From the NCBI GenBank assembly GCA_029939235.1, contig JAOZTG010000005.1:15057-48833 (forward strand): 33,777 nt of DNA. The letters are read 5' to 3'. This document shows positions 3,911 to 32,461 of the stretch, piece by piece. Position 1 is the stretch's first letter; every line of letters starts with the position of its first letter. The notes under the pieces are model-generated. The model made no database searches and had not been told where the DNA came from. It saw only the letters and a list, made by a program, of their open reading frames with translations. This DNA comes from Flavobacteriaceae bacterium (GTDB lineage: Bacteria; Bacteroidota; Bacteroidia; Flavobacteriales; Flavobacteriaceae). A program made the position numbers and the translations under genes.

Positions 3911-5026
3911 CTAAACCCTTAAGAATATTTTATTTTTATACAAATAATACAAGATGAACCATTCAAAAGCGATGCTTCCCAGTATGATAATTACTTCACC
4001 AAAATCACCCATAGGTTTTGCTAAAAAACCAAGAAAAAACTCGGCTGTATCCCAGGAATCTAATATTCTATGTCCCATATAAATGGTAATCGAGTTGAGT
4101 CCGATCACTCTAAAGAAAAGGGTCCAGTTTCGCCATTTTCTTACATCGATGATATAGTAGAACAGAGCCATCAAAAGAAAACTAATACCTGAGGTTAGCA
4201 TATTAAATGGAACTGTCCATATGTTTTTAATGATTGGATAAACAGGTGACAATAATAAAGCCATCAATACAAGAGGAATTCCAATACTTAGTAGTAAACC
4301 AGTTTTTTTATTTTGCGTATATGTTTTGTTTCTCAGAATAAATCCGGCAATAGATCCAAATAAAGTGATCATTGTTGCGGAAACGATCGACAATATACCT
4401 TCAGGATCATAGGTTCCATATATCAACCTTCCGGGAAGAAATTTTTGATCCATCCATGCATTGATACTACCTTCTGGTGTTAATACGCCAACTCCAAATC
4501 CTGGAACAGGAGTAAAAAGTTGTAAAATGGTTATACCAGTCATGATACCTATCAGCCAAAATATTCGGGCTTTAAGGGTTGATGAGTTTATTACAATGAC
4601 AGAGGCAAAGAAATAGCCAATTCCTATTTGTGATAAAACACTGAGATAGCGAGGGTCTGAAAAACCATTTTTTAAGACTCCGTTATAAATAAGTCCGAAG
4701 AGTACCAATAAAACCATTCTTTTAAATACTTTTTTATGAAGAACGGATTTTTTAATTCCTTTTTCTAATCTGGAGACCAGTGCAAAGGGTATGGCTACTC
4801 CTGACATAAACATAAATAATGGGAAGATAAGGTCTTCAAAACGAAACCCTTCCCATGGTACATGATGCATTTGTTTGGCAAGAACTTCTACCCAGCCCCA
4901 TTCTGTGGCCTTCGCCAGAGCTCCTAATAAAGAGCCTCCTCCAATGATCCAGAACATATCAAATCCTCGAAGGGTATCTAAAGAGTATAATCTTTCTTTT
5001 GCTTTTGGCTCATTTTTTGTTTCCAT
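3911..5026 (-). CDS. HGSNAT-like membrane acetyltransferase (DUF5009/COG4299)
   Basis: A 371-residue polytopic inner-membrane protein with roughly ten hydrophobic segments. The N-terminus carries the family signature SLDTLRGFDMFWI (about residues 15-27), followed by a cytosol/periplasm boundary loop with HHVPWEGFRFEDLIFPLF. These are hallmarks of the bacterial relatives of human heparan-alpha-glucosaminide N-acetyltransferase, which move acetyl groups across a membrane onto the amino sugar of a glycan. The gene starts 19 nt after the GH20 hexosaminidase stop, and the two are probably translated from one mRNA. That pairing suggests that terminal glucosamine is N-acetylated, or that a released amino sugar is modified, before or after hexosaminidase action. 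The substrate is not visible from sequence, and another acyl acceptor is possible. Confidence 0.75.
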   Translation of the reverse strand: METKNEPKAKERLYSLDTLRGFDMFWIIGGGSLLGALAKATEWGWVEVLAKQMHHVPWEGFRFEDLIFPLFMFMSGVAIPFALVSRLEKGIKKSVLHKKVFKRMVLLVLFGLIYNGVLKNGFSDPRYLSVLSQIGIGYFFASVIVINSSTLKARIFWLIGIMTGITILQLFTPVPGFGVGVLTPEGSINAWMDQKFLPGRLIYGTYDPEGILSIVSATMITLFGSIAGFILRNKTYTQNKKTGLLLSIGIPLVLMALLLSPVYPIIKNIWTVPFNMLTSGISFLLMALFYYIIDVRKWRNWTLFFRVIGLNSITIYMGHRILDSWDTAEFFLGFLAKPMGDFGEVIIILGSIAFEWFILYYLYKNKIFLRV

Positions 5027-7345: not shown

Positions 7346-7990
7346 TCAAATTACGATCTTTCCATTTTTTAAGGAAATAATACGATCAGCGTATTTATCA
7401 GCTTCTTTACCATGGGTTACAACAATTACTGTACCTCCGTTTTTATGGAATTGCACAAAACTCTTCAATACTTCTTCTGCATTTTCCGGATCCAGATTAC
7501 CTGTAGGTTCATCAGCTAAAATAATTTTAGGATGATTGATCAATGCTCTGGCAACAGCTGCCCGTTGTTTTTCACCTGCACTTAAGGCATTTGGTTTATG
7601 ATGCATTCTATCACCCAATCCAAGATCCACCAGCATTTTTTCTGCTTCAGCATTCTTTTGTCCTAAAGACATTACATTCACATTTTCAAGAAGTGTTAAA
7701 TATGGAAGTAAATGAAACATTTGAAATACAAATCCAACTTTAGAAGCCCGAAACTGATTTCTTTCGGTCGCGCTCAAATTGTAAATATCCTGCTCGTCAA
7801 AAAGTAATTTTCCACTACTTGGTTTGAGCATAGCTCCAATCATCAGGAGCAGGGTTGTTTTTCCACTTCCACTTGCACCTCTAATCACAATAAACTCCCC
7901 ATTTTCAATATGCAAGGAAACATGATCCAGAGCTTTAACTTCTTCTCCTTTTGATATATATACTTTACTAAGATCCTTTATTTCAATCAT
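7346..7990 (-). CDS. ABC transporter ATP-binding protein, LolD/MacB type
   Basis: A 214-residue cytoplasmic ATPase with every catalytic motif: Walker A GASGSGKTT (residues 38-46), Q-loop Gln90, signature LSAGE (136-140), Walker B ILADEP (Asp160, Glu161) and switch His193. The LSAGEKQRAAVARAL form and the small size are typical of LolD/MacB/FtsE-like ATPases, which drive FtsX-fold permeases as mechanotransducers rather than classical importers. It starts 2 nt after the permease stop and is the last gene of the tight module 13659-7346. The partner is therefore the adjacent permease, and the work is probably done on the extracytoplasmic proteins encoded upstream. Cargo, if any, is unknown. Confidence 0.92.
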   Translation of the reverse strand: MIEIKDLSKVYISKGEEVKALDHVSLHIENGEFIVIRGASGSGKTTLLLMIGAMLKPSSGKLLFDEQDIYNLSATERNQFRASKVGFVFQMFHLLPYLTLLENVNVMSLGQKNAEAEKMLVDLGLGDRMHHKPNALSAGEKQRAAVARALINHPKIILADEPTGNLDPENAEEVLKSFVQFHKNGGTVIVVTHGKEADKYADRIISLKNGKIVI

Positions 7991-7992
7991 AA

Positions 7993-9135
7993 TCAGTTCT
8001 CTCTTAAAATTATAGCAGGATCCTTAGAAATGGCGATCATTGTTGGAATAAAAGATGCAACAATTGCCAGTAACGGAGCAAGTAACATGGACCAAAAAAG
8101 TAAACTGTAAATTGGCTTGATCGATTTGGCAGTTACTACAAAAATATCCGGTCCGTAGATCAATGAAAAAGCAGTACCGATGATAAATCCAAATATTGCT
8201 CCAATAATTCCCATAATAAATGCTCTTCCCAAAAAGAGTAAAGCGGTTTTAACCGACCCGTATCCTAAAGCTCTGAGTACCCCTATTTCCTGAATTCTTT
8301 CCTTCACATTTAAATAGGCCAGTGTTCCGATCCATATGGTGGAAACCAAAATTAAAATTGGGATCAGATATGCAAAGTACTTTTCAAACATTCTTCGTTG
8401 CTTTTCACGGGTAACAGCTATGGTTTGATTGAGAACCAGTTTCCCTTCGGGCATCACCTGATCCAGTTGTTCTCTTAAAAGTGTTATTGCATCTGTATGA
8501 TCATCAATTAAACACAGGCAATCCAGAGCCTTAATTTCATTAATCTTTCCTTCCATATGCAGAATTTTCTGCACGTCAGTAAGTGGTGCAAAAATACGAA
8601 TATCATCTGTGTTCCCATTTTCGGTTAGTGTTTTTGTAATCACAAATTGCTTGTCTAAAACAGAGATGCTATCTCCTTTTTTAAGATTGTATTTTTTTGT
8701 AATTTCATGTCCAACATACACACTTCCGGGTTGAATAGTAAACACCATCGGAGCTTTTTTCTTTCCTGAAGGTTCTATCTCCGGAGAGATTCCTGTGAGG
8801 ATAATATTCATATCCTTCCATTTGATTTTTTGATGTAAAGTGGCTGTTAAATGTGCATATGAAAAATCTTTAAAATTATTAAATCTCTGTACAAATTCCT
8901 CCGGCATAGTATTACTTGAAAATCCTGACAACCAGAAATTATCCATATTTGTTTCCTTAGGGATGATCCGAAGGTTAAAACCCATATCTCTGGTTAGGCG
9001 TTTTGTTTCTCTGTCTGAAGCCTCACTCGTGGTATAGAAAGCAACAAAAAAAGCAACGGCAGTGATCACGGCGATCAATGCCAGGATAAAGTTTACCTTT
9101 CTACTTAAGATCTCTTTTATTATCAGTTGGAACAT
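7993..9135 (-). CDS. FtsX/MacB-type ABC permease
   Basis: A 380-residue membrane protein. I start it at 9135 (MFQLIIKEIL) rather than at 9195. This start puts it 1 nt after the stop of the upstream gene, matching the spacing in the rest of the operon, and places a Lys/Arg-flanked first TM helix at about residues 13-35. A periplasmic MacB-like domain spans about 40-245. Three C-terminal helices (about 260-285, 310-335 and 350-372) complete the 4-TM MacB/FtsX topology, and the QEIGVLRALGYG coupling segment is diagnostic for contact with the ATPase. The periplasmic domain holds a Cys206-x-Cys208 pair (DCLCLID), unusual in LolCE/MacB proteins as I know them. No outer-membrane or membrane-fusion partner is encoded nearby. 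Confidence 0.85.
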   Translation of the reverse strand: MFQLIIKEILSRKVNFILALIAVITAVAFFVAFYTTSEASDRETKRLTRDMGFNLRIIPKETNMDNFWLSGFSSNTMPEEFVQRFNNFKDFSYAHLTATLHQKIKWKDMNIILTGISPEIEPSGKKKAPMVFTIQPGSVYVGHEITKKYNLKKGDSISVLDKQFVITKTLTENGNTDDIRIFAPLTDVQKILHMEGKINEIKALDCLCLIDDHTDAITLLREQLDQVMPEGKLVLNQTIAVTREKQRRMFEKYFAYLIPILILVSTIWIGTLAYLNVKERIQEIGVLRALGYGSVKTALLFLGRAFIMGIIGAIFGFIIGTAFSLIYGPDIFVVTAKSIKPIYSLLFWSMLLAPLLAIVASFIPTMIAISKDPAIILREN

Positions 9136-9136
9136 G

Positions 9137-10420
9137 TTAATATTTTTTTCTAATAAAAATGATAAATCCGATGACCAGAATAACAAAAAAACCAATCAGT
9201 ACGATATTCATTGAATCTCTGTAATTATAGGATTTCTCTTTTACTTCTGATTTTTTTTCGACAATTGGTGGTTCTGTTTTTTTCTTTTCGGATGCTACCG
9301 GAATAGTTTCAAGACTATCATTTTTTATAGCTTCTGTTTTTTTAGATTCAATTTTTTTGACATGAACATTTTTTGAAGTATCTGCTTTTTTTATAGTTTT
9401 TTTAACTTGCAATTTTTCTTCTTTAGCTGATTCCGTTATGATCAAAACACTTTCAGAATAACCATATAAAATATCTGTATCGATGGAATTATTTACTCTT
9501 TCAGGTGCAATGGATAAGATCTGACTCATTTCGGAAATGATCAAAGGGTTATCTGCATCAAATCCATGCTCTTTAAACACAGCAGCTTTTAATTTTGAAT
9601 CCCATCTTAGCGGAAGCATGGTGCCCAGCATCCAGCTTCTATCTAGTCCACATTCGCAATCTTCCCCTATAAAACGCATCATATTTTCAATAACATCCTG
9701 CTTAATCATGTTGCCAGTAAGTATAGGTCCCATTCTTCGGGCACGCCCGTACATCATTGCAATAGCAGGATGTTCTGCATCTTTCTTCTCCCAGCCAAGA
9801 CTCCAGAGAAGTACACTTTCTTTCTCTGTTTCATTTGATTTGATTGTGATCACATGTGGAGGTGTATGAACAGGATGTGGTAATCCTCCCATGATCTTTT
9901 TGATCTCATCAATTCCAATATTCAAAAGAGCACGTGCTTTTTCATTTTCTTCTTTGTTGTTTCCTTCCACAAAAAATATTACTCCGTAAGCTTTGATGAT
10001 ATTTTTAGTGAGTTCATTTCGTGCAGGAGAAATAAGTATTTCCTCTATCAGATCCCATAATGCTAAAGAAAAATTTTCAGATTCATCGATAAAAAATTCC
10101 TTAGCCCTTTGCTCGGGAGAAATTAACATGATATTTGGTTTCCTTTTGCCTGCATACTCTTTATAATATTTGGTTAGTGAAGATTCATCATTGTTCACAT
10201 CAATAACCTCAACTATAACATTTGCGTCCAGCATGGCTGCTCTGGCAGTATTTTTAAAGGTCTTTATATCTCCATCAGATATGCTTCCATCATTAAAAAG
10301 TACAAACCAATACTGATCTTTTCCAAAATCAGCAAAACCAATTTCACGAACCGTATATCTGCAGGCAAATAAATTACTTATTGCCACAAATAGAAAAAGA
10401 ATAGTTAAACGTAATTTCAT
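9137..10420 (-). CDS. unknown exported protein with C-terminal membrane anchor, partner of the ABC module
   Basis: A 427-residue protein that I cannot assign to a characterised family. It has a signal peptide (residues 1-19) followed at once by Cys20 in the segment CRYTVREIGF. Residues about 25-105 alternate strands and helices (WFVLFNDG, then PNIMLISP) in a way that recalls a thioredoxin-like fold, but with no CxxC. A Cys255-x-Cys257 pair (EDCECGLDR) follows in a conserved-looking core (about 200-320). Residues 335-397 are a low-complexity Lys/Glu linker, and 404-423 is a single TM helix with RKKY after it, suggesting a large extracytoplasmic domain held at the inner membrane. It sits 2 nt after the propeller/methyltransferase gene and 1 nt before the FtsX permease. 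The translational packing implies that the four products act together. A lipoprotein alternative (LFAC) is less likely given the C-terminal TM. Confidence 0.7.
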   Translation of the reverse strand: MKLRLTILFLFVAISNLFACRYTVREIGFADFGKDQYWFVLFNDGSISDGDIKTFKNTARAAMLDANVIVEVIDVNNDESSLTKYYKEYAGKRKPNIMLISPEQRAKEFFIDESENFSLALWDLIEEILISPARNELTKNIIKAYGVIFFVEGNNKEENEKARALLNIGIDEIKKIMGGLPHPVHTPPHVITIKSNETEKESVLLWSLGWEKKDAEHPAIAMMYGRARRMGPILTGNMIKQDVIENMMRFIGEDCECGLDRSWMLGTMLPLRWDSKLKAAVFKEHGFDADNPLIISEMSQILSIAPERVNNSIDTDILYGYSESVLIITESAKEEKLQVKKTIKKADTSKNVHVKKIESKKTEAIKNDSLETIPVASEKKKTEPPIVEKKSEVKEKSYNYRDSMNIVLIGFFVILVIGFIIFIRKKY

Positions 10421-10422
10421 AT

Positions 10423-13400
10423 TTAATTTTTTGAGATAAATACAAATGATGTTTGAATTGGATAATCACAGGTACATCCTGAACTTGCTTCGGGAACAGA
10501 TATCAGATCACCCGCAGGAATTATATTGATCCAGCATCCCGGTCTGTTCACTTTTGTTAAATGAGTTCCTTGTTTATCTTCTTTGATCAGATCATAAAAA
10601 GTAGGATTTGAATTTCTGGCAAACAGATTATTTGCAGAACCAGAAAATGCTCCACATCCTCCTTTACTAAAAGTTACATCATCTCTAAGACCGGTTTTCA
10701 GATCAAAAATATACGGGTATAAAAATATTCTATTACCAATTATAACAGGGTGCTGCCATTGCTCACCATGAGAACCTCCAGTATCACCTCCTTTATACTC
10801 TTTCTCCCAGTTTAATTTCCCTTTTTTTCCATCAAATGCATAGATACGATAATGAACATTTGCCTTTACATTAAAAGATCCTGTAACGAGTAATGTTCCT
10901 TTTGTAAAAGAAAGAAACATGATTTGAGAATAAGGAAACTTAAATTCTTTTTCCCATACTTTTTTACCTGTACGTTTGTCTAATTTCACAATATAAGTTG
11001 GTCCTTCATTGAAATGATCCACTCTCAATCTTCCATCAAAATCGTGCACTGCCTTTGAGTTACGGCTTTCAACTAAATACATAAAATCATCACCAATTGT
11101 GATCGTATTATTGAAAACCAGTCCACGATATGTCCATAAAACTTCACCTGTTATTCGATCAAGAGAAAACAGAAAATCACTACTCACCATATCACGGTAA
11201 TCTCCTTCAAAAGCATCGCAATTATCACGACCTAATGTAGTAACCGATGCATTAGGTTTTTTGCCTGATCCAAATATCTGATCACCAACGATTGCGAGAT
11301 AACCCCATTTGCTTTCTTGTCCCTTAACCACTTGAGGAACATCCAGTGTGATATCCTGATCGCCATCTTCCACTTTAAAACCCAATGCCGTTTGACCGGC
11401 AGCAATATAAATATGATCACTTGCTACTGCCATGGTTCCACAATCTCTTAATGCTCCAAGAACTCTTGAATCAGGAACATATTTATTCCAAAGAGGTGTT
11501 CCATTGTATGCATCCACACTAATAATTCGGTTGTCTCCCGGCACAAAAAGTCTGCCGTCTTTGAATAGAGGTGCCATAGGTCGACTATGTCGATTGATCA
11601 TTTCACGTGGTCCGGGCTGACCAAACCACTGAATTTCAAAGGGACCTTCAACAGAATCTTTACTGCAGGCTGTATTGCCCGGTTCAGCGTAAAGATGTGT
11701 CCATTCTCCAGCCCCCGGAATGATGCCTCTTTTGACACTTATCCATCCATCATGTTCTTCCCACTTTTTATTTGATTGAACAGTCCACTGTTTTAAAAAT
11801 TGTTTATTTTTCTTTTCTATTCCCAGATATGCAATACCTCCATAAGGTTTTAGAACTCTATATATTTCATCAGCTGATGTTTCTAAACTACCTGATATCA
11901 ATAATTTATCAGAAATGATCAGATTTGCAAAGTATTTATTAAAAGGTAAATTCTTTAGATCTCCATGAATGATATTTACTTTACTTCCATAGATACCTGC
12001 ACTATTTAACAATTTACGAGATTTTTCAACTTTTACAGCATCACTTTCAATACCTATTATTTTAAGATCTGTTCTTTTAGCAAGCTCATAAACCAATTGT
12101 CCGGTTTCACTACCAACAACAAGACAGTAGCCTTTTTTAACCCCTGTTGAAATGATCTGACTTACAGCAACCTCGTAAATTTGTGCATTGTGATCATCCT
12201 TATATGGATTTTCCACCAGTTCTGATCTATAGTCAGCAGGTTTTGAAACTCTTTGAGACGTAAAACTGTAAATGATTCCTTTATCAGTACTTACCAGCAG
12301 TTTTCCGTTGGCAACAGCCAGACTGTAAACAATACCTTCTACTTTTTCTGACCATGTTTTTTTCCCTGAAGTGGAGTCATAGATATCCACTTTCCCATTA
12401 CCTCCGATGATAATGGATTTTCCTGCAAGAATCATAGAATAGGAGCCATCGATCTTTGTTTTCCAGATCAAACCTCCGGCTTCAATTTTCTCTCGTTTAT
12501 CCTCATACAAATTGATTTTCTCAATAAACCCCTGTATTCTAGAATCAATCTTTTTTATTTCGGATGGAGATGCTTTTTTTCGTTGTTCCCGGAGATCCCA
12601 GAGGTCATGGGCCAGATCACTCTTTTTATCTTCTGCCTTTGCCCAGTCTTTGTAATCGGCTATATATTTTTCCCGCCTGATAGCTGATAATTCTTTATCT
12701 GATCGCAAATAGGAAATATCGTTTTCAACAATAATTTGCAAACCTAAAAATGTAGCAATTTCATCATCTTCATTTGTACTGCAGGCAGGATAATTATTGA
12801 GCCCTCCCTCATCACCGGCACCAAAAATAATTTCATCATCTACCAATAAAGCATAGGTACCACCATTACCATCATTAAAATCACCTACTCTGCTACCATC
12901 CTTACGGGAAAAGATCTTAGGTTGGGTTCTCCCGGTGGGTATATAAAGATTGGTTTTTGAGGCGAGCATATATCCCTGAGGTGAAATTTGAAGATTTGTT
13001 TCTTTCCAGATAATATTTCCATTATCTGCATTTACAGCATAAAGTTCAACCCCTTCATTTGGAAACATACCAGAACAAAAATAAGCAACTCCATTATCAA
13101 CAAGAACTCCGGTTCTTATTGCTGAAGTTGAAATGATCCTTTCATTTCCCGGAATAAGTTTTTTGCTTTCCGAGGCTTCTACTTTCCAGATCAATGTTCC
13201 TTTTTTGGCATCTAAACAATAGGCTATACCATCATCCGAACCAAAATAGATCTTTCCATTTGCATAAGAAGGAGCAAGTCTTACCGGACCACCTGTAAAA
13301 AATGACCATTCTTCCTTACCCGTTTTTGCATCAAGGCAATATACTTTGTCATTGGCTGAAGAACCAAAATAAACTTTATCATCTACACTGATAACATGAT

Positions 13401-13659
13401 AAGCCCTGTCAAATACAACACGTGGTTTTAAATTCTCTTCACGATGCCAAAAATCAGTTTTTGCAGGGGCAGGCCATGCCGGACTCGGGGCAACAGTTGC
13501 CTGATGTTTCCATTGTAAGTTCAAAGGAAATTTTAAAGTATTAGGAGTGATACAACTTCGCTGCACGTCATTTTGATAGGTTGGCCAGTCCTGTGCAAAA
13601 AGTGAATTAATGGAAATTGTCAATACAAATATGAAAGAAAGATAAAGTTGTTGTTTCAT
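10423..13659 (-). CDS. secreted PQQ-like beta-propeller protein with inserted methyltransferase fold
   Basis: A 1078-residue exported protein. I start it at 13659 (MKQQLYLSF), 1 nt after the GH172 stop and with a clean signal peptide ending LFAQ; the longer reading from 13761 only adds sequence overlapping the upstream gene. Residues about 25-490 are PQQ-type WD-like repeats (CLDAKTGKEEW, CLDAKKGTLIWK, YDSTSGKKTW). They are interrupted by a charged helical insert at about 320-392. Residues about 505-630 match a class I SAM-methyltransferase Rossmann core (CLVVGSETGQ, IIGIE, HGDLKNLPF, YRVLKPYGG). A second propeller region (about 640-1078) opens with WTHLYAEPGNT and ends with a Cys1062-x-Cys1064 pair. 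I believe similar fusions occur in Planctomycetes and Verrucomicrobia, without known function. It need not bind PQQ; BamB-like scaffolding is possible. Confidence 0.8.
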   Translation of the reverse strand: MKQQLYLSFIFVLTISINSLFAQDWPTYQNDVQRSCITPNTLKFPLNLQWKHQATVAPSPAWPAPAKTDFWHREENLKPRVVFDRAYHVISVDDKVYFGSSANDKVYCLDAKTGKEEWSFFTGGPVRLAPSYANGKIYFGSDDGIAYCLDAKKGTLIWKVEASESKKLIPGNERIISTSAIRTGVLVDNGVAYFCSGMFPNEGVELYAVNADNGNIIWKETNLQISPQGYMLASKTNLYIPTGRTQPKIFSRKDGSRVGDFNDGNGGTYALLVDDEIIFGAGDEGGLNNYPACSTNEDDEIATFLGLQIIVENDISYLRSDKELSAIRREKYIADYKDWAKAEDKKSDLAHDLWDLREQRKKASPSEIKKIDSRIQGFIEKINLYEDKREKIEAGGLIWKTKIDGSYSMILAGKSIIIGGNGKVDIYDSTSGKKTWSEKVEGIVYSLAVANGKLLVSTDKGIIYSFTSQRVSKPADYRSELVENPYKDDHNAQIYEVAVSQIISTGVKKGYCLVVGSETGQLVYELAKRTDLKIIGIESDAVKVEKSRKLLNSAGIYGSKVNIIHGDLKNLPFNKYFANLIISDKLLISGSLETSADEIYRVLKPYGGIAYLGIEKKNKQFLKQWTVQSNKKWEEHDGWISVKRGIIPGAGEWTHLYAEPGNTACSKDSVEGPFEIQWFGQPGPREMINRHSRPMAPLFKDGRLFVPGDNRIISVDAYNGTPLWNKYVPDSRVLGALRDCGTMAVASDHIYIAAGQTALGFKVEDGDQDITLDVPQVVKGQESKWGYLAIVGDQIFGSGKKPNASVTTLGRDNCDAFEGDYRDMVSSDFLFSLDRITGEVLWTYRGLVFNNTITIGDDFMYLVESRNSKAVHDFDGRLRVDHFNEGPTYIVKLDKRTGKKVWEKEFKFPYSQIMFLSFTKGTLLVTGSFNVKANVHYRIYAFDGKKGKLNWEKEYKGGDTGGSHGEQWQHPVIIGNRIFLYPYIFDLKTGLRDDVTFSKGGCGAFSGSANNLFARNSNPTFYDLIKEDKQGTHLTKVNRPGCWINIIPAGDLISVPEASSGCTCDYPIQTSFVFISKN

Positions 13660-13660
13660 T

Positions 13661-14809
13661 TTATTTCTTTTTTTTAATAATAAGATCTTCATTTGAAGGT
13701 AATTTTGGGAAGGGATTATGAGGCTCCATTTGATACCAGAAAGCAACAGATGCCAGATCATCTTTTAAAGGTAAATATCCATCAGGTCCCCACCCCAGGC
13801 TTTGGACTGTAATTCTCAAATCTTTATCAAAACGGATCGGATCCAGAACATGCCACCTGTACTGACCAAAAACTCCAACAAATCCGTCGATCTTAGATTT
13901 TTTTACTTCATAGAATCCTGAATATAAGCTACTAAAGCTATCGTAATACATTTTTCCATCAATTTCTCTGTCGTTATAACCGTAAGATCCCAAAAAATAA
14001 TCTTCTTCTCCTGTTGTGCAAATGGTTGGGAATTCTTTGTCTCCATCCATAAAGAATTTAACTTCGCCTTCTCCCCACCAGCCACTTTTTCTGGCACCAT
14101 GAGCCAGGTAGGTTCCAACATATTGACCTTTACCTTTTATTCCATCTACAATAGTAAATACTTCTTTATAAGGTAATTCTTTTACTCTTCTAAACTGAGC
14201 ATGAAAATATGGAGTGTCTTTCTCTACTTTTTCAAGGGAATAATTTATTTGATAATATACAGTTGCTTCCTTATCAGACATGTTTTCCATGGTAATTTTG
14301 CACTTTTTTCTAAATGGCATTTGCCAGTAAGAATTAAATCCACTTCTTGGGTTAACTGCTACTGTTGCAGAATTTATTACCGGTTCATTCATAATTCCCC
14401 AGCCTGCAGCAAAAAAATCTCCGACAGGAACTTCAATAGAAGGTTCTTTTTCATCATCCCAATAAAAACGTAAGATCATCAAACGGTATTCACCAACGGG
14501 AGTCATCCAGACATGATTGATAATTCCTGAGGCATTAATCTCTCCCAAAGTGAAAGTTTCTCCAGGTTTGATGTGAATATATGGGTTGACTTTCCATCCT
14601 CTTCCTAATTTTTTTGCGGCTTTTGCGGCCGAACCTTCTTCTAAGGTTGCCATTCCTCCTTTGCCTTTTTCTCCTGTAAAGTTTTCAGGACTTATGGATC
14701 GGGTTTGGGCATTGGAAAGTTGAAACAGATTTCTTAGATTGTTTGTCTGACAATAAGAATTTAAACTTATTGATAATATGATTACTATTAATAAAAATGA
14801 TTTTTTCAT
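13661..14809 (-). CDS. GH172 (DUF2961) glycoside hydrolase, copy A
   Basis: A 382-residue secreted enzyme with a signal peptide ending near Cys20-Gln21. The sequence is a complete DUF2961 domain, the family now called GH172, whose characterised members act on alpha-D-fructofuranosides or D-arabinofuranosides as trimers/hexamers. Glu247 (WWGEGEV) and Glu268 (TTGEEDYF) lie 21 residues apart, the same spacing I recall for the two catalytic Glu residues (270 and 291) of the Bifidobacterium alpha-D-fructofuranosidase. Hand alignment with copy B (22033-23202) shows about 87% identity over about 360 residues. It follows the GH3 gene by 58 nt and precedes the propeller/methyltransferase gene by 1 nt, so it links the glycan block to the ABC module. 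The exact furanoside is unknown. Confidence 0.88.
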   Translation of the reverse strand: MKKSFLLIVIILSISLNSYCQTNNLRNLFQLSNAQTRSISPENFTGEKGKGGMATLEEGSAAKAAKKLGRGWKVNPYIHIKPGETFTLGEINASGIINHVWMTPVGEYRLMILRFYWDDEKEPSIEVPVGDFFAAGWGIMNEPVINSATVAVNPRSGFNSYWQMPFRKKCKITMENMSDKEATVYYQINYSLEKVEKDTPYFHAQFRRVKELPYKEVFTIVDGIKGKGQYVGTYLAHGARKSGWWGEGEVKFFMDGDKEFPTICTTGEEDYFLGSYGYNDREIDGKMYYDSFSSLYSGFYEVKKSKIDGFVGVFGQYRWHVLDPIRFDKDLRITVQSLGWGPDGYLPLKDDLASVAFWYQMEPHNPFPKLPSNEDLIIKKKK

Positions 14810-22032: not shown

Positions 22033-23202
22033 TTAGTTCTCTTTATTTTTCTTTTGAATGATCAGGTTTTCCTTAGAAGGTAACGCAGGAAAGGGATTGT
22101 GTGGTTCAATTTGATACCAATAGGCAACGGAAGCCAGATCATCCTTTAAGGGTAAATATCCATCGGATCTCCAGCCCAGACTTTGAACTGTAATTCGAAG
22201 ATCTTCATCAAATCGGATAGGATCTAATACATGCCAGCGATATTGTCCAAAAACACCCACAAACCCCTTGATTTTTTCATCTTTTACTTCATAGAAGCCA
22301 GCATATAAGCTGCTAAATGAATCATAGTGCATCTTTCCATCTATCTCTCTGTCATTATAGCCATAGGATCCTAAGAAATAATCTTCTTCACCTGTAGTGC
22401 AAATAGTTGGAAATTCTTTATCGCCATCCATATAGAATTTCACTTCACCTTCTCCCCACCATCCGCTTTTTTTTGTACCATGAGCCAGGTAAGTTCCAAC
22501 ATATTGTCCTTTGCCTTTTATTCCGTCAACTATGGTAAATACCTCTTTGAACGGAATTTCATTTACTCTGCGAAACTGTGCATGAAAGTATGGTGTATTT
22601 TTTTCTACCGTTTCAAGTGAATAATTTATTTGATAATATACGGTAGCCTTTTTATTAGATCTGTTTTCCATCGTAATCCTGCATTTTTTTCTGAATGGCA
22701 TCTGCCAGTAAGAATTAAATCCACTACGCGGATTAACAGCTATCGTTGCTGAATTGATCACCGGCTCATTCATAATTCCCCAACCAGCAGCAAAAAAATC
22801 ACCTACGGGAACTTCAATAGAAGGTTCTTTTTCATCATCCCAGTAAAATCTAAAGATCATTTGTCGATAATCTCCAACAGGAGTCATCCAGATATGATTG
22901 ATTATTCCTGAACCATTGATCTCACCAAGGGTAAAGGTTTCTCCTGATTGAATGTGGATATAAGGATTTACCTTCCAACCCTGACCTAATTTTCTGGCCA
23001 TTTTTGCAGCCGTACCTTCTTCCAGAGTTGCTATTCCACCTTTCCCTTTTTCGCCTGTAAAATTTTCCGGACTTATGGATCGTGTCTTTGCATTTGATAA
23101 TTGATAGAGATTTTTAACTGTAGGAACCTGAGCAAATAACATCCCATTGATAAGTAGTGAAATAAAGAGTAATTTTTTAATTCTATTTTTTATAGTGATC
23201 AT
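22033..23202 (-). CDS. GH172 (DUF2961) glycoside hydrolase, copy B
   Basis: A 389-residue secreted enzyme, a close paralogue of the protein at 13661-14809. The signal peptide ends near MLFAQ. Candidate catalytic residues are Glu251 (GWWGEGEV) and Glu272 (TTGEEDYF), the same 21-residue spacing as in copy A. Substitutions relative to copy A are mostly conservative and concentrated in the signal peptide, surface-type Lys/Asn positions and the C-terminal tail; one notable loop change is LGWRSDGY here against LGWGPDGY in A. It starts 1 nt after the sialidase-fold gene stop, suggesting coupled expression with that enzyme. GH172 includes alpha-D-fructofuranosidases and D-arabinofuranosidases; which applies is open. 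Confidence 0.88.
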   Translation of the reverse strand: MITIKNRIKKLLFISLLINGMLFAQVPTVKNLYQLSNAKTRSISPENFTGEKGKGGIATLEEGTAAKMARKLGQGWKVNPYIHIQSGETFTLGEINGSGIINHIWMTPVGDYRQMIFRFYWDDEKEPSIEVPVGDFFAAGWGIMNEPVINSATIAVNPRSGFNSYWQMPFRKKCRITMENRSNKKATVYYQINYSLETVEKNTPYFHAQFRRVNEIPFKEVFTIVDGIKGKGQYVGTYLAHGTKKSGWWGEGEVKFYMDGDKEFPTICTTGEEDYFLGSYGYNDREIDGKMHYDSFSSLYAGFYEVKDEKIKGFVGVFGQYRWHVLDPIRFDEDLRITVQSLGWRSDGYLPLKDDLASVAYWYQIEPHNPFPALPSKENLIIQKKNKEN

Positions 23203-23203
23203 T

Positions 23204-24925
23204 CTATTTAAGGTCTTTTAATTCCCAATGGGTTTGCATCAGGCTTGTTTTTTCACCGGCTTTATCTATTTGATAATAGATGGTGAGAATGGAGCCATCA
23301 TCCAGTTGAACAGATGCCGGATAACCCAGATCATCTGTTGCACTCATGCTCAGAAGAATTTCATTTTCTATATCCCAGGTTTTACCACCATCTTTACTGA
23401 TACAGGCTCTTTCGCCATAAGGGATTTTTCTAACCCCATAAGAAAGTAGAAGCCAGTCATTTTTAAGTTTTATGAGGTGAGGAGGGTAGCCCCAAATATT
23501 TGTTTTTCGGGTTACAGACCATGTTTTACCACCATCAGTGCTCTCTGTTTGACGTAAAAAGGATTTTGATCGATCCTTAGGTTGATATCTGAACATCGCT
23601 ATTAATTTACCATCGGGAATTTCTACAACATGTGGTTCAGAATATGGTTCTAATAGATCTTCCTTAGGAATATCTATAGTGGATAGCAAATTCCAGGTCT
23701 TCCCTTCATCTTTAGATTCTTCAACCCCTAATTTTTTTTCTCCATTAATTGAGGTAGTCCCTACATACAACAGCCTGCCATCTTTCAATTCTATCGGGCC
23801 ATGTGGAGCTGTTACCAATTGTTTTACAGGCTCTTCCCATGTTTTTCCTTGGTCTGTAGATCGGCGTGTCCAGTTACCCAGCCATTTATTGATGGTTTCC
23901 TTATTCAGTTTTTCTCTATGCCGTTTATACTCCGGGTGTTGAGCATAGGATCTTCCATTGTCGAATGCCATGGAGGTAAACCAGCTAACGATCCAGGTGC
24001 CTGATCTCGTCTCCAAAATACCGGCATCCCGATCATCCAAAGGAGTGTTATTTATAGTAATGGGATCAGTCCAGGTCTTGCCATTATCGGTACTCCGTAT
24101 CATTTCGGTAATCCCATAGGGACAAACATGTTGGTCTCTGTTTCCGGAAAAAACCGCTATCAATTCCCCGGACTTAGTTTTCATAATTGTTGGCCAGCCA
24201 ATATACCGATTGGGCTCTTTACAAATTACTTTGGTCTCCATAATACTTGCATTTTTGGAGCTTTGGGAATGCATCCTCTCTATTCTGGAATCGAAGAGCT
24301 TTTGATCTTTCGGTCCGTAAATTTGTGCATAGGCGCCCCATCCACCACCAATTTGATCAATTTTAAGTAAGATGCTGTTCTTTCCTTTTTTTAAATGAAT
24401 ATTTGCTATGTTTTGAGATGGCTGGGCAGCTCTACCGGTTTTGTGATCAACTACTAATCTGCCATTGAACCATACTTTACCGGCATCGTTTGTGCCGATA
24501 TGTAAATGGATATCCTGATCAGCATTGCTGTCCAATTCAGCATATAAATAAGTAAATACATCGGAAGGATTCCCAAACAGATCTGTTAGATTGATATAGT
24601 CGGTCCTCCAGGAGTGCAATTTAAACTTATTAGTTTTCCCGTCTGGTGTTTTGAATTCTTTTAAAGCAACAATTTTAGCAGAAGTTTCTCCGCCGATATC
24701 GATGAGAAAATCTTTTGAAAATCCATTTTGAAAATTCTTTGTATTTATTCCATTTTGAGAATAATTATTTGCTATTGGAGCAGTAACAAGCCAATTGTGT
24801 AAAGTAACAATATCCCCATTGACTGGAATTGAAGTGATATGTTTTTGAGCCAAAGAATTATTATAAAACAGTGCTATAAGAACAATTGGCAATATTCTGG
24901 TAATTCTTCTGATCTGATCTATCAT
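23204..24925 (-). CDS. sialidase-fold (BNR/Asp-box) exo-glycosidase-like protein with N-terminal jelly-roll domain
   Basis: A 573-residue exported protein. I use the start at 24925, giving an ATGA overlap with the upstream stop, rather than 24940. The signal peptide ends NNSLAQ. Residues about 35-205 are a beta-sandwich module ([31 protein letters not shown]), resembling the non-catalytic domains joined to glycan-binding enzymes. Residues about 230-573 form a six-bladed sialidase-type propeller with five Asp boxes of the form S-x-D-x-G-K-T-W, at about 278, 356, 404, 462 and 510. The strand [19 protein letters not shown] is typical of this fold. A full sialidase Arg triad cannot be confirmed by eye, so it may act on a different sugar or only bind. 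It is translationally coupled to DUF1080 and GH172 B. Confidence 0.75.
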
Positions 24926-25689
24926 AATTCGCGGATCCAAATGTTTCTATAACTAACCGGGGAGCCATGGTCTTGTAAGGAAATGGGCTCCTTTGTCCCG
25001 TGTTTTTTATAGGAAGGAGCACTTGAATGCGCTGTATTTCCCAGAATCTCTACATGATTTTGGATCAATACACCATTTTGAATAACAGTGATATATGCAG
25101 GTTTGTCCATTTCGCCGTTATCTTTAAAAACAGGTGCTTTATAGATGATATCATAAGCTTGCCATTCTCCGGGACGACGGCATGCATTCACTAATGGTAT
25201 GTATTGCTTATAGATACTGCCGGCCTGTCCGTTCACATAGGTCTTATTGTCATATGAATCTAATACCTGCACTTCATAACGCTCTTGTAAAAAAATTCCG
25301 CTGTTTCCTCTGTCTTGTGAATCATCTTTAACAATAGCGGGACTTCTCCATTCTACGTGAAGCTGACAATCGCCAAAAGATCTCTTTGTTCGAATACTTC
25401 CCGATTTTTTAACAACGGTCATCTCTCCATTTTCTAATTTCCATTTTGCTTTTCCACCTTTTGTGCTTTCCCATTCATTCATATTGGTACCATTCATCAG
25501 TACGATTGCATCTGACGGAGCTGTTGTTGCATTACCGGGATTGATCACGACGGGTACAGGTTCCCATATGGCGGTAGATTTACTTTTATTTTCCTGCCCG
25601 ATGCACGTTGATGAGAACAGAAATATGGAAGTTCCAATAAATAGAAATGCTGGTTTTAATCTTTTAAGAATGAAGTTTTTTTTGTTCAT
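24922..25689 (-). CDS. DUF1080 (3-keto-disaccharide hydrolase-like) secreted protein
   Basis: A 255-residue exported protein. I start it at 25689 ([10 protein letters not shown]), which leaves a 25-nt gap after the upstream stop; the longer reading from 25764 overlaps that gene and adds no signal-like sequence. The signal peptide ends at about SSTCIGQ. Residues about 55-250 are a DUF1080 jelly roll: [50 protein letters not shown] and the closing [20 protein letters not shown]. The domain is named for hydrolysis of 3-keto-disaccharides made by glycoside 3-dehydrogenases; no such dehydrogenase is in the window. It overlaps the sialidase-fold gene by ATGA, so the two are translationally coupled. 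Confidence 0.8.
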
Positions 25690-25714
25690 GGTTATTATTT
25701 TTAATTTGTCTGAA

Positions 25715-26590
25715 TTATTCCTCAATGCAAATAGAATAAGCTGCATCAAAACTCTTTTTAGCATTTAGCCTGATCAGTCCTTCTTTATTTTCAAAACTCC
25801 TATCGGAATCATAACTGTCTGCGATTCCTATCCAGGGTTCAATGCAGACGTATTCTGCATTTGGCTTTGCCCAAATTCCCAAATAGGGAAAATCTTTAAA
25901 TTCAACCGAAAGGACCTGATTTGATCTTTTGCTTTTCAGACTTACCTTATTAGAATTCAAATTTTTAAGCACGAGTGCATCGTCATCAAATAAGTGGGCA
26001 TGTAAATGGATAATCTTAGGTTCGGAGAAAACAGGATAGGTTTCCTTTCCTATCAAACCATCCTTTTGCACACTCCATGTTTGGGCTGTTTCGGGTTTTT
26101 CAAACTCCAGGTAATAATCGCTGTATTTTTCGCCTTCATTAAGCGGACATTTAAAGCCGGGATGACCTCCCAGTGAAAACAACATCTGCTGATCACCATG
26201 ATTTGTGATTTGATGTTCAAGTCTCAATTTATTTTCTTCAAGGATATATTTGATCCGGTATTCAAATAGAAATGGATATATCTTTAAATAATGATCATTA
26301 TATTTTAAGCCAAAAGTGAGTGTATTCTCTGTTTTTTCAATCAAGGAAACATCTTTATTATTCCTTATAAAACCGTGTTTCGGACAGCTGTATTCTTTTC
26401 CCTGATATAAAAAACTATCATTTTTCAGACAACCGATGATTGGAAATAAATTTGGAGCATGAGATGCCCATACATCAGGGTTGGCATCCCACATGTATTC
26501 TTTGTTGCTGATCAGTGATCTTATACTGCATAATTCAGCCCCTTTTTCCTTTACTTTTACCTGAAGATATTTATTTTTTAGTGTATACAT
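25715..26590 (-). CDS. aldose 1-epimerase family protein (LacX-like)
   Basis: A 291-residue cytoplasmic protein (no signal peptide) of the galactose-mutarotase fold. His72 (KHGFIR), His143 (GGHPGF) and Glu251 (CIEPWIG) correspond to the substrate-binding histidines and catalytic Glu of aldose 1-epimerases. The family interconverts alpha and beta anomers of free aldoses, or of hexose-6-phosphates in YeaD-type members. LacX-like members have no proven specificity. It is the first gene of the glycan block, 94 nt downstream of the transporter gene, and it reads into the DUF1080 gene 25 nt later. It fits handling of monosaccharides released by the secreted hydrolases. Confidence 0.82.
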
Positions 26591-29625: not shown

Positions 29626-30771
29626 TTAAATTAATTTTTTCAAAATTGCTATAACATCTCCTTTTTCTACTTTCTTTGGATTTAACGGACAACAAGGATC
29701 TTTTAAAGCATAGGCTTCCAGATCTTCCAGTTTGTCTGCTTTAACACCAAGTTCTGATAGGTTCTTAAGTATATCCATTGATCTTAACCATTCTTCCACA
29801 GCAGTGATAACAGCTTCAGCATCATTTTCAACTCCAAAAATAGTTCCTAAAGAAGCATATTTTTCACGAATTTGATCTCTTGATAAATTGTATCTCATTA
29901 CCTCAGGCAAGACAACTGCATTTGCCAAACCGTGGTGCATATCATAAAAAACACCCAAAGCATGTGCAATAGAGTGATTGATTCCCAATCCTTTTTGGAA
30001 AGCGATGGCTCCCATTGCAGATGCCATTAACATATTACCTCTTGCTTCAATGTCAGATCCGTTATTTACCGCAGTTGGTAAATATTTTACACACATTTCC
30101 ATTGCTTCTTTTGCAAGTCCATCTGCCATCGGGTGAAAGGTTTCCATAATGTAAGCCTCTAAATTGTGCACAAAAGCATCAACACCTGTTGCAGCTGTTA
30201 ATTTAGCAGGTAAAGAAATGGTGATCAAAGGATCAAGTACCGCAATATCCGGCATCATATATGGTGAAAAAATAATGGTTTTCACATTATTTACTGTAAT
30301 TACACTACTTCTTCCTACTTCACTTCCTGTTCCGGCGGTAGTTGGAATTGCATAAAAAGGAGGCATATTATTCTTGATATATTTATCACCACCTTTTGTG
30401 TCATCATATTTTTTCAGAGGCCCGTCATGTGTAGCCATTACTTTAATGGTCTTACCTGTATCAATTGGAGAACCACCACCAAGTGCTACGATAAAGTCAC
30501 AATTTGCATCTAAGTAAACTTTTGTCCCCTCCAATACATTTTCCTCTGTGGGGTTTGATTTTACATCACTAAAGATTACTGTTTCTACACCAACTTTGGT
30601 AAAATAGTCTTGTAATTGTTTTGCTGTTCCTACTTTTTCAATTCCTTTATCGGTAACGATCAATCCTTTTTTTGCTCCACTTTCTTTTACAATAGTTGTA
30701 AAATCCTTCATTGCTCCAGGTCCGTATTCAATTCTTGTTGGAAATGAATAAGAATGTCTCATATTTGCCAT
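29626..30771 (-). CDS. iron-containing alcohol dehydrogenase (group III)
   Basis: A 381-residue cytoplasmic oxidoreductase. The N-terminal NAD(P)-binding half has GGGSPID (98-104) and TTAGTGSEVG (144-153). The metal-binding half has Asp198 (VDAF), His202 (VHNLEAY), His266 (NHSIAHALG) and His280 (MHHGLANA), the four Fe2+/Zn2+ ligands of this family. Members oxidise alcohols or reduce aldehydes (propanediol, 4-hydroxybutyrate, sulfoacetaldehyde, phosphonoacetaldehyde). I start it at the first Met; Met4 is also possible. It follows the aldehyde dehydrogenase gene by 20 nt, so an alcohol-to-aldehyde-to-acid sequence within the operon is natural, but the substrate is not shown. Confidence 0.93.
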   Translation of the reverse strand: MANMRHSYSFPTRIEYGPGAMKDFTTIVKESGAKKGLIVTDKGIEKVGTAKQLQDYFTKVGVETVIFSDVKSNPTEENVLEGTKVYLDANCDFIVALGGGSPIDTGKTIKVMATHDGPLKKYDDTKGGDKYIKNNMPPFYAIPTTAGTGSEVGRSSVITVNNVKTIIFSPYMMPDIAVLDPLITISLPAKLTAATGVDAFVHNLEAYIMETFHPMADGLAKEAMEMCVKYLPTAVNNGSDIEARGNMLMASAMGAIAFQKGLGINHSIAHALGVFYDMHHGLANAVVLPEVMRYNLSRDQIREKYASLGTIFGVENDAEAVITAVEEWLRSMDILKNLSELGVKADKLEDLEAYALKDPCCPLNPKKVEKGDVIAILKKLI

Positions 30772-30791
30772 ATTATATTTTATTTATTTTT

Positions 30792-32183
30792 TTATTTGAT
30801 TTTTGTTCGAAGATGATATGATTTTGGTCTGGTAAGCTGGTCATATCCAATTGTAGAAAGTGTACAGCCACGGCCGGTGTCTTTCACACCTGTCCATGCC
30901 AAATACGGATCTAGATAATCACATCTGTTCATAAACCATGTGCCTGTTTCAACCTCGTTACCTATTGAAAGTGCCTTGTCCTGATCATTTGTCCAGATAG
31001 AAGCTGTTAAACCATATTGGCTGTCATTCATTAGTGCCAATGCTTCTGCATCATCTTTTACTTTCATGATCCCAACCACAGGGCCAAAACTTTCTTCCGT
31101 CATTATTTCCATACTGTGATCTACATCTATAAGAACCTGAGGTGCTAAATAATTGTACCCCATTTGTGTTTCGGGAAATAATGAGGGGTCAATCAAAGCT
31201 TTTGCACCTTTTTTTATAGCTGCTTCTATTTGAAATTTAACATACTCAGCACCTCCTCTTTTTGCTACCGGACCCAGATTTGTGTCTTTATCAAGCGGAT
31301 TTCCAAGTTTATATTTTTTAGTTTGTTCGGTGTAAGCTTCCACAAAACGATCAAAAACATTGTCTTTTACATAGATACGTTCAATTCCACAGCAAGACTG
31401 TCCGGAGTTAAAAAAGGCTCCTTCAACAAGATTCTCTACATAAAAATCCAGATTGGCATCGTCACGAACATATGCCGGATCTTTACCTCCAAGCTCCAAT
31501 CCAACACCTACAAAACTCTCTGCGGCAACTTTTTGGATATGATGTCCACCACTTACCGAGCCGGTAAAAGAAACAAAATTTATTCTCTTGTCACGAATAA
31601 CATTTGCAGTTTCACTATGGTTTAAGTGCAGATATTGAAATAAACCTTCAGGTAAATCAGCAATTTTAAAAGCTTCAGCAAAACGTTCGGCTACCAAAGG
31701 TGTTTGCGCAGAATGTTTTAATATCACAGCATTTCCGGCAAGTAAAGCAGGAATAACTGTATTTACAGCTATCAGGTAAGGGTAATTCCAGGCAGGAACT
31801 ACAAAAACAACTCCAACCGGATCTTTTTTAATAAAACGATCAAATCCTGATATTTCATCCACCTTTACATCTGATAAAGATTTTTCAGCCAGGCTTAACA
31901 TTCCTTTTGTTCTTTCAATAGCTCCGTTAACCTCAAATGGTGTATGACTGATTGGTCTACCCATTTGCCAGGTCAATTCAGTACTGATTTGATCTTTTAA
32001 ATTTTCTAATGCGGTTATAAACTTTTCAATATACGGTTTACGTTCTTTGACCGTATAATTTTTCCATATTTTCTGTGCGCTTACAGCTGCTGTTAGTGCC
32101 TTGTCAATATCCTTTTTAGTGTGGAGCTCACGCTCGATATAGATACTGCCATCTATTGGTGATATCAATTGCAATTTACTCAT
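30792..32183 (-). CDS. NAD(P)-dependent aldehyde dehydrogenase
   Basis: A 463-residue cytoplasmic ALDH, slightly short for the family (typically about 475-500) but complete in all motifs: PAWNYP (130-135), FTGS (206-209), catalytic Glu230 (LELGGKDP), catalytic Cys264 (FFNSGQSC, with Cys265 next to it) and EESFGPVVG near the C-terminus. It converts an aldehyde to the carboxylic acid. The sequence is closest in appearance to the succinate-semialdehyde/aminoaldehyde group, but the substrate is uncertain. It is the first gene of the minus-strand operon and is divergent from the phosphoesterase gene. The ATG at 32183 has no Shine-Dalgarno sequence; only A/T-rich sequence precedes it, as is usual in this phylum. 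Confidence 0.93.
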   Translation of the reverse strand: MSKLQLISPIDGSIYIERELHTKKDIDKALTAAVSAQKIWKNYTVKERKPYIEKFITALENLKDQISTELTWQMGRPISHTPFEVNGAIERTKGMLSLAEKSLSDVKVDEISGFDRFIKKDPVGVVFVVPAWNYPYLIAVNTVIPALLAGNAVILKHSAQTPLVAERFAEAFKIADLPEGLFQYLHLNHSETANVIRDKRINFVSFTGSVSGGHHIQKVAAESFVGVGLELGGKDPAYVRDDANLDFYVENLVEGAFFNSGQSCCGIERIYVKDNVFDRFVEAYTEQTKKYKLGNPLDKDTNLGPVAKRGGAEYVKFQIEAAIKKGAKALIDPSLFPETQMGYNYLAPQVLIDVDHSMEIMTEESFGPVVGIMKVKDDAEALALMNDSQYGLTASIWTNDQDKALSIGNEVETGTWFMNRCDYLDPYLAWTGVKDTGRGCTLSTIGYDQLTRPKSYHLRTKIK

Positions 32184-32246
32184 TTGTTATAGTTTATTAA
32201 TTCGATTAAAATTTCTCAAACAGGGTAATATATTATGTAAAAAAAA

Positions 32247-32254
32247 CAAAGATA
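32247..32254 (-). promoter_or_regulatory. candidate -7 element for the dehydrogenase operon
   Basis: On the minus strand these bases read TATCTTTG, a perfect match to the Bacteroidota TAnnTTTG -7 element, about 63 nt upstream of the aldehyde dehydrogenase ATG. No clear TTG -33 element is at the usual distance. The surrounding 278-nt gap (32184-32461) contains no ORF. Confidence 0.4.
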
Positions 32255-32397
32255 GACCTAAATTATTTGGATTATTTCAGATATCTTATTTGATAAACAC
32301 TAAATATTAACCTTTTTAAAAATTCAACAATTTCGATTTTTCAGTCGGGCTTCTATTTATTTTATTTTTGCAGGTTAATATTTGATGTTTCATAGGT

Positions 32398-32405
32398 TAA
32401 TTTTG
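32398..32405 (+). promoter_or_regulatory. candidate -7 element for the phosphoesterase gene
   Basis: The sequence TAATTTTG is a perfect TAnnTTTG match ending 56 nt before the phosphoesterase start. A second copy, TATTTTTG, lies at 32363-32370. TTTG boxes at 32367 and 32381 are not at ideal -33 spacing, so the choice between the two is uncertain. Confidence 0.33.
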
Positions 32406-32461
32406 ATGTAATAATTGTAAATTGGCTTCATAAATTTAATCAAATTAAATTCATCTTTTTT

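Follow-up and report, generated by a model that had tools for sequence, protein, structure and literature searches.

The four consecutive minus-strand genes at positions 7346-13659 of the window (the whole 33,777-nucleotide stretch analysed here, G000:C278:15057-48833, from a Flavobacteriaceae assembly of 3.43 Mb in 303 contigs) encode an exported double-propeller protein (PROP), a membrane-anchored protein of 427 amino acids (aa; U427), an FtsX-type permease (FtsX) and an ATPase, and together they are a variant of the Type VII ATP-binding cassette (ABC) systems, one whose chemical signature can be tested. The reading that we prefer, tentatively and with somewhat less than even confidence, is a Type VII ABC machine in which a thiol relay matures PROP, with placement of a soft metal or metal-sulfur unit as its probable task. 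ATP hydrolysis by the ATPase would move the permease; the CxC (Cys-any-Cys) pair of FtsX, with H95 and M77, and the anchored U427, with C20 and its CEC motif, would form the relay; and the relay would hand a soft-metal ion or metal-sulfur unit to PROP, or rearrange the thiols of PROP, the recipient being a putative four-cysteine site made of C1002, C1042 and a CTC motif, perhaps with H655 and H964. An original prediction, made from the letters of this DNA, had described a tight four-gene module and guessed at a machine that handles an extracytoplasmic protein or cofactor, and it stands as a reasonable guess; what is new here is an invariant CxC in three exported parts, a sister module, a further copy elsewhere in this genome, and ModABC/MoaD/ThiF neighbours.

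The cysteines that carry this reading are listed first in Table 1. All are invariant in the rows aligned, as are M77 and H95 of FtsX (18/18), and of the PROP histidines H655 is present in 19/19 rows and H964 in 17/19. The rows are not independent, some being near-identical pairs and some genomes giving two rows, and the 19-row PROP count omits rows shorter than 1000 aa (L014 and both halves of L022) and the rearranged L018 and L040; among these the CxC is found in L018, L040 and the C-terminal L022 half, and not in the short L014 row. As background, CxC occurs in 7 of 207 non-module open reading frames (ORFs) of at least 200 aa at 27 loci, and in 1 of the 83 with an N-terminal hydrophobic stretch, these being mechanical ORFs and not curated genes. 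At the place of the FtsX CxC, MacB (5gko) and LolE (7arh) have neither CxC nor any cysteine (the two, out of five alignments, that span the segment); these two serve as negative controls because the sister permeases, fetched for that purpose, turned out to have the CxC. An invariant cysteine pair shared by three outward-facing parts suggests that the machine equips PROP with something, perhaps a metal centre, or restores it there.

The sister permeases are three weak FtsX matches (84-106 bits), and each sits in a four-gene cluster of its own (L093-L095) that encodes a CNVPVFRYALERW-type protein, an FtsX with KCxC, an ATPase and a propeller. The first protein has 366-406 aa, begins with ACNVPVFRYALERW or nearly so after its signal, and has a C..CSC motif and a C-terminal transmembrane segment (TM). 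Compared as alignment profiles, U427 and this protein match with probability 97.4 and E 1.6e-11 (the sister profile having just 3 rows), and both permease types keep M77, H95, C206 and C208 of FtsX without exception (16/16); MacB_PCD scores 23.5 bits in a sister permease, below its cut-off of 27. The sister propellers (1245-1256 aa) have GC, GC and CxC in their C-terminal stretch (3/3; matched by eye), and the one scanned with Pfam matched PQQ_2 and malectin and no methyltransferase. By sequence comparison, then, the U427-type and sister modules are two diverged systems that share four parts and the CxC sites (3/3 loci). That the signature is kept in the exported parts of both is the strongest sign here that these parts act on each other or on one ligand. 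The sister profile found no match in 395 Bacteroidota genomes, which shows little for a 3-row profile without a positive control.

Table 1. Cysteine sites, domains and genes of the four-gene module (window positions; residue numbers where so marked)
Feature	Position	Strand	Note
PROP C1062-T-C1064 (CxC)	10468-10476	-	19/19 rows
PROP C1042	10534-10536	-	19/19 rows
PROP C1002	10654-10656	-	19/19 rows
U427 C255-E-C257 (CxC)	9650-9658	-	28/28
U427 C20	10361-10363	-	28/28
FtsX C206-L-C208 (CxC), extracytoplasmic domain	8512-8520	-	18/18
PROP gene	10423-13659	-	1078 aa
U427 gene	9137-10420	-	427 aa
FtsX gene	7993-9135	-	380 aa counted from ATG
ATPase gene	7346-7990	-	214 aa
PROP domains	residues ~39-470, BamB-like propeller; ~500-640, degenerate methyltransferase-fold; ~650-1078, second propeller	-	exported
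PROP methyltransferase-fold (Rossmann) domain	11740-12162	-	Methyltransf_25 35.9 bits
U427 architecture	9137-10420	-	predicted signal peptide, tandem thioredoxin-fold domains, C-terminal TM 405-423 (hydropathy)

The four genes are a real module, and not a chance arrangement, because the set recurs in other genomes. In the window the intergenic gaps of 2, 1 and 2 nt and the 1 nt between the PROP start and the stop of the preceding glycoside hydrolase family 172 (GH172) gene were reproduced as first described; all four genes start with ATG and are free of internal stops, and a longer PROP ORF starting at 13761 was not used since it overlaps GH172 and is unneeded. Synteny was scored over 29 copies chosen by U427 (28 with most of U427, and the further copy of the window's genome, in which a contig end truncates U427), many of the incomplete ones being short contigs. 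The same fetched stretch as U427 includes PROP in 23/29, FtsX in 20/29 (18 from the synteny scan and two more by permease search), the ATPase in 17/29 and all four in 15/29, so that the genes, contrary to what independent occurrence without synteny would give, keep company as the original prediction proposed. The gene orders PROP-U427-FtsX-ATPase, U427-FtsX-ATPase-PROP and FtsX-ATPase-PROP-U427 all occur, and the linkage is therefore not that of one frozen block. Among 82 genomes of the L018 phylum, a matching FtsX of at least 370 bits is present in 6 of the 7 that have U427 and in 0 of the 75 others, and the next best match has 106 bits; in two of these six (G104 and G157) FtsX lies on a different contig from U427.

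The permease is of the FtsX/MacB fold, with a large extracytoplasmic domain, and has a dedicated ATPase, as is characteristic of Type VII ABC systems. It matches Pfam FtsX with 49.5 bits and, by profile, MacB (1.6e-16) and LolE (1.2e-11); hydropathy predicts four TMs (16-34, 257-275, 305-323 and 345-363) and an extracytoplasmic domain of ~220 aa between TM1 and TM2. The ATPase (Pfam ABC_tran, 116.3 bits; Walker A GASGSGKT and signature LSAGE) is of the LolD/FtsE/MacB type. Its best NCBIfam match is LolD at 208.1 bits, below the cut-off of 307.75, and LolCE gives 43 against 362.45, so the pair falls outside the LolCDE equivalogs. Pfam scanning of the 19 larger window proteins (three genes at 29626-33604 lay outside the scan) found no membrane-fusion protein, lipoprotein carrier or outer-membrane factor and, in a search that stayed within the window, no LolA or LolB, which agrees with the earlier description of a MacB/LolCDE-type pair lacking its usual partners. 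The module thus resembles MacAB-TolC, LolCDE-LolA, FtsEX-EnvC and YbbAP-TesA in having a four-TM FtsX-fold permease with a large extracytoplasmic domain, a dedicated ATPase and a job-defining partner, and differs from them in that the partner is a membrane-anchored tandem thioredoxin-fold protein together with a double propeller; unlike in MacAB-TolC, ATPase and permease are separate genes, and no adaptor is present among the 19 scanned proteins. The nearness of the ATPase to LolD and of the permease to MacB and LolE, and the lipoprotein-like character of several PROP proteins, which have a cysteine after the signal, would fit a release or secretion machine that extracts PROP from the inner membrane with U427 as carrier or adaptor. 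We consider this quite unlikely, as the signal of the window PROP has no lipobox cysteine, U427 is anchored in the membrane, unlike the soluble LolA, and the invariant CxC would be left unexplained.

U427 gave nothing above cut-off in Pfam or NCBIfam, and no sequence relative of it was found in the PDB. Its AlphaFold2 (AF2) model (mean predicted local distance difference test score, pLDDT, 77.4; 21 rows) has two thioredoxin-like units, the best Foldseek matches are ERp57 (b-b') and protein disulfide isomerase (PDI) multi-domain chains (E 1.7e-6, with whole-length TM-scores of ~0.19), and residues 130-252 give VIA Z 9.2 to thioredoxin. U427 is therefore predicted to be a tandem thioredoxin-fold protein, and the C-terminal TM makes it membrane-anchored; of the 'membrane-anchored unknown' first proposed the anchor is retained, and the unknown now has a predicted fold. 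C20, C255 and C257 are its only cysteines in the window protein, C20 being probably the first residue after signal cleavage, by the inferred cleavage position. Thioredoxin-fold proteins and PDI b-b' share with the module the predicted fold and the presence of cysteines in both partner and client; U427 is unlike thioredoxin and PDI in being tandem, in having a CxC after its second domain and a C-terminal TM and, in the window protein, in lacking a CxxC active site. Sco-type copper chaperones offer a further thioredoxin-fold comparison. The PDI b-b'-like fold, the CxC in all exported parts and the four conserved PROP cysteines could also mean a thiol-disulfide relay, in which the CxC sites of a PDI-like U427 pass electrons to PROP or isomerise its disulfides while ATPase and permease drive the release of folded PROP. 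We judge this unlikely: the window U427 has three cysteines in total and no CxxC, a thiol reductant partner was not among the window proteins scanned, and an ABC machine seems excessive for a single client with four cysteines. We favour insertion of a metal or cofactor over disulfide shuffling because of the CxC in every part, the window U427 without CxxC, and the three-cysteine ModA described below.

PROP begins with a propeller (Pfam PQQ_2, 121.8 bits); residues ~30-470 of its AF2 model (mean pLDDT 72; 13 rows) give VIA Z 27-28 to Rv3035, tetrathionate hydrolase and BamB, and the N-terminal half thus resembles BamB, PQQ_2 propellers and tetrathionate hydrolase. The second propeller is poorly modelled, with pLDDT below 50 at 646-695, 998-1008 and 1026-1073. 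The second propeller, the degenerate Rossmann domain and the four conserved cysteines set PROP apart from BamB. It falls far short of the BamB equivalog (78.3 bits, cut-off 285.2) and of the pyrroloquinoline quinone (PQQ) dehydrogenase family TIGR03075 (55.6 bits, cut-off 480.05), and its matches to plasmid propellers, among those listed, cover no more than 20% of it. The original prediction mentions similar propeller/methyltransferase fusions in Planctomycetes and Verrucomicrobia. The window PROP exceeds the Pfam cut-offs of Methyltransf_25 (cut-off 27), Methyltransf_31 and Methyltransf_11, so the methyltransferase domain first noticed here holds as a match; as a working enzyme it fares less well, since a single row of the 19, which is not the window protein, keeps the glycine motif [DE]xGxG. 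GxG was scored in 7 rows, in three of which it precedes the strand, and E538, the acidic residue after strand 2, is E or D in 17/19. The three Pfam matches and the conserved acidic residue are what speaks for a secreted propeller/methyltransferase enzyme that uses S-adenosylmethionine (SAM), with the ABC system exporting cofactor or product. The loss of the motif and the exported location make it very improbable, as does the result that the PROP proteins of L025 and L018 and sister PROP-B match no methyltransferase at E 0.001. In Arenibacter hampyeongensis (L022:4535-8986) PROP is encoded by two ORFs, split where the methyltransferase-fold domain begins.

A possible source of metal and sulfur is seen in six Flavobacteriaceae genomes. 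Four loci (L019, L022, L023 and L025) have the module behind ModB, ModC, a MoaD-like protein with GG at its end and a short ThiF; in the other two, L021 and the second copy in the window's genome (L082), it comes directly behind ModABC. ModA passes the TIGR01256 cut-off (116.3 bits against 62.5). The ModA of these six has 487-500 residues; its domain 1 resembles ordinary ModA, and its domain 2 has a cysteine in each of three loops (6/6) that align with what we take to be the ligand loops of ModA structures. This second domain perhaps binds a thiophilic ligand (examples of the tandem protein are L047:1031-2494 and L082:6606-8108), and ModA stops after domain 1 in 2/2 loci without an adjoining module. 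The module-adjacent ModA is thus unlike that of the standard ModABC importer in its tandem form, its three-cysteine second domain and its restriction to six Flavobacteriaceae genomes. A more specific form of cofactor assembly, which we regard as rather doubtful, would have the CxC-relay Type VII system load a new metal or metal-sulfur centre, possibly Mo/W-S or Cu-S, into a new class of double-propeller enzyme, with ModABC, its three-cysteine ModA and MoaD/ThiF supplying metal and sulfur in Flavobacteriaceae. The module MoaD and ThiF are unlikely to be ordinary molybdenum cofactor genes, given that a separate ThiS/MoaD-family gene adjoins MoaC in G112, G115 and G117 and that the short ThiF, searched against 149 genomes of the family, has matches in 97 (27-37% identity) and no close relative among them; the matching frames have 347-411 residues except for four (209, 222, 247 and 562).

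A precedent for an ABC system with a chaperone is NosDFY with NosL, which mature the CuZ site of nitrous oxide reductase (PMC7660919). As in the module, an ABC system is there encoded with an exported client (NosZ) and a chaperone-like partner. The module proteins gave no match to the Nos models of Pfam and NCBIfam. NosZ is a beta-propeller, and the Nos ABC type and chaperone fold differ from those of the module. By this analogy NosDFY/NosL is a precedent for the logic of maturation and not a relative. In Type VII systems an ATP-driven conformational change does its work in the periplasm and the partner defines the job (PMC12646458). Just a handful of partners is known for these machines, and matched cysteine pairs in permease, partner and client would tie the Type VII class to thiol or metal chemistry. 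Such a machine would also give a handle on large exported propeller proteins, and might bring to light a metal centre so far overlooked in bacteria that degrade polysaccharides. A search of the open-access literature, by titles and the starts of abstracts, found no description of such a module.

Several points weigh against metal placement by a thiol relay. Type VII systems typically pass no substrate across the membrane (PMC12646458), and the proposed metal site rests on Cys/His/Met conservation, while CxC pairs and four-cysteine sets can be disulfides. FtsX is missing from the fetched stretch in 9 of the 29 copies, at L006, L018 and L048 despite several kb of flank. The ModABC link is confined to the six Flavobacteriaceae genomes; L020 and L024 have the same gene order without ModABC, a further Flavobacteriaceae genome with a copy (G003, 77% complete) has no ModB match anywhere, L021 and L082 (two of the six) have no MoaD/ThiF at the locus, and ModABC with an 83-84% identical ModB occurs in 2 genomes where the module does not adjoin (5 of 299 genomes were ModB-positive, G699 being G112 and G773 being G117 by their coordinates, and one being the window's). 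Of 21 genomes with the module, 10 gave a MoaC and 11, the window's among them, did not; several of the 21 are incomplete metagenome-assembled genomes (MAGs).

Two candidates were set aside on these counts: ModABC was rejected as part of the module core, and a requirement for molybdopterin is unsupported, the missing MoaC indicating that molybdopterin is not evidently needed.

The module is rare and scattered, and is found in Bacteroidota and a KSB1 phylum. U427 is present at 20 loci of the genome collection, one from a Calditrichaceae MAG; in 3 of 100 relatives, counting its own genome (two of these are already counted in the 20 loci); in the window's own genome, as the single positive of an even draw of 395 Bacteroidota genomes; and in 7 of the 82 genomes of the L018 phylum, to which the KSB1 genome of L010 also belongs. 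No relative of U427 or of the sister protein was found in viral contigs or plasmids. The second copy in the window's genome (L082:6606-16051, G000:C39) lies behind ModABC, and its U427 ends at the contig edge after 22 residues, residue 22 being the conserved cysteine. Trees were built of U427 (28 rows) and FtsX (18 rows). The window U427 groups with Marinilabiliaceae, Bacteroidales and Draconibacterium (100/99 support), and the FtsX tree joins the second copy to one from Flavobacteriaceae (97/99). Because the two copies of one genome group apart and their FtsX proteins are 47% identical, the window copy looks horizontally acquired, unless its contig is misbinned, and the module is apparently a rare, horizontally spread envelope system.

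The genes beside the module differ by copy: an S49 peptidase and lpxK at L008, a radical SAM protein at L010 and ModABC in the six Flavobacteriaceae genomes. This bears on a sensor or activator like FtsEX-EnvC, in which the machine would respond to a cytoplasmic state by switching PROP, or a glycosidase encoded nearby, in its activity. Such sensors or activators are known among Type VII systems (PMC12646458), and the window copy lies within a glycoside hydrolase locus; the changing neighbours at L008, L010 and in Flavobacteriaceae, with no fixed glycan client seen, make the idea improbable. A glycan specificity of the module was likewise dropped as a candidate, no neighbour being constant across loci.

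Some copies have features of their own. Snuella sedimenti has a second PROP-U427 pair (L048:6230-10568) with no module-type FtsX or ATPase adjoining, and at L042 and L043 a 707-aa protein stands between PROP and U427, with a GH65-C match in L043. Genes for GH20 enzymes and sulfatases turn up repeatedly beside some of the copies, an impression without a background count. A DUF5009-type membrane protein is encoded downstream of the module in the window (3911-5026) and at L006 (4760-5878), where its gene directly follows U427 without FtsX or ATPase. Two GH172-type (DUF2961) genes lie within 10 kb in the window (13661-14809 and 22033-23202), among genes of the GH3, GH16, GH20, GH106-like and 3-keto-disaccharide hydrolase (24922-25764) types.

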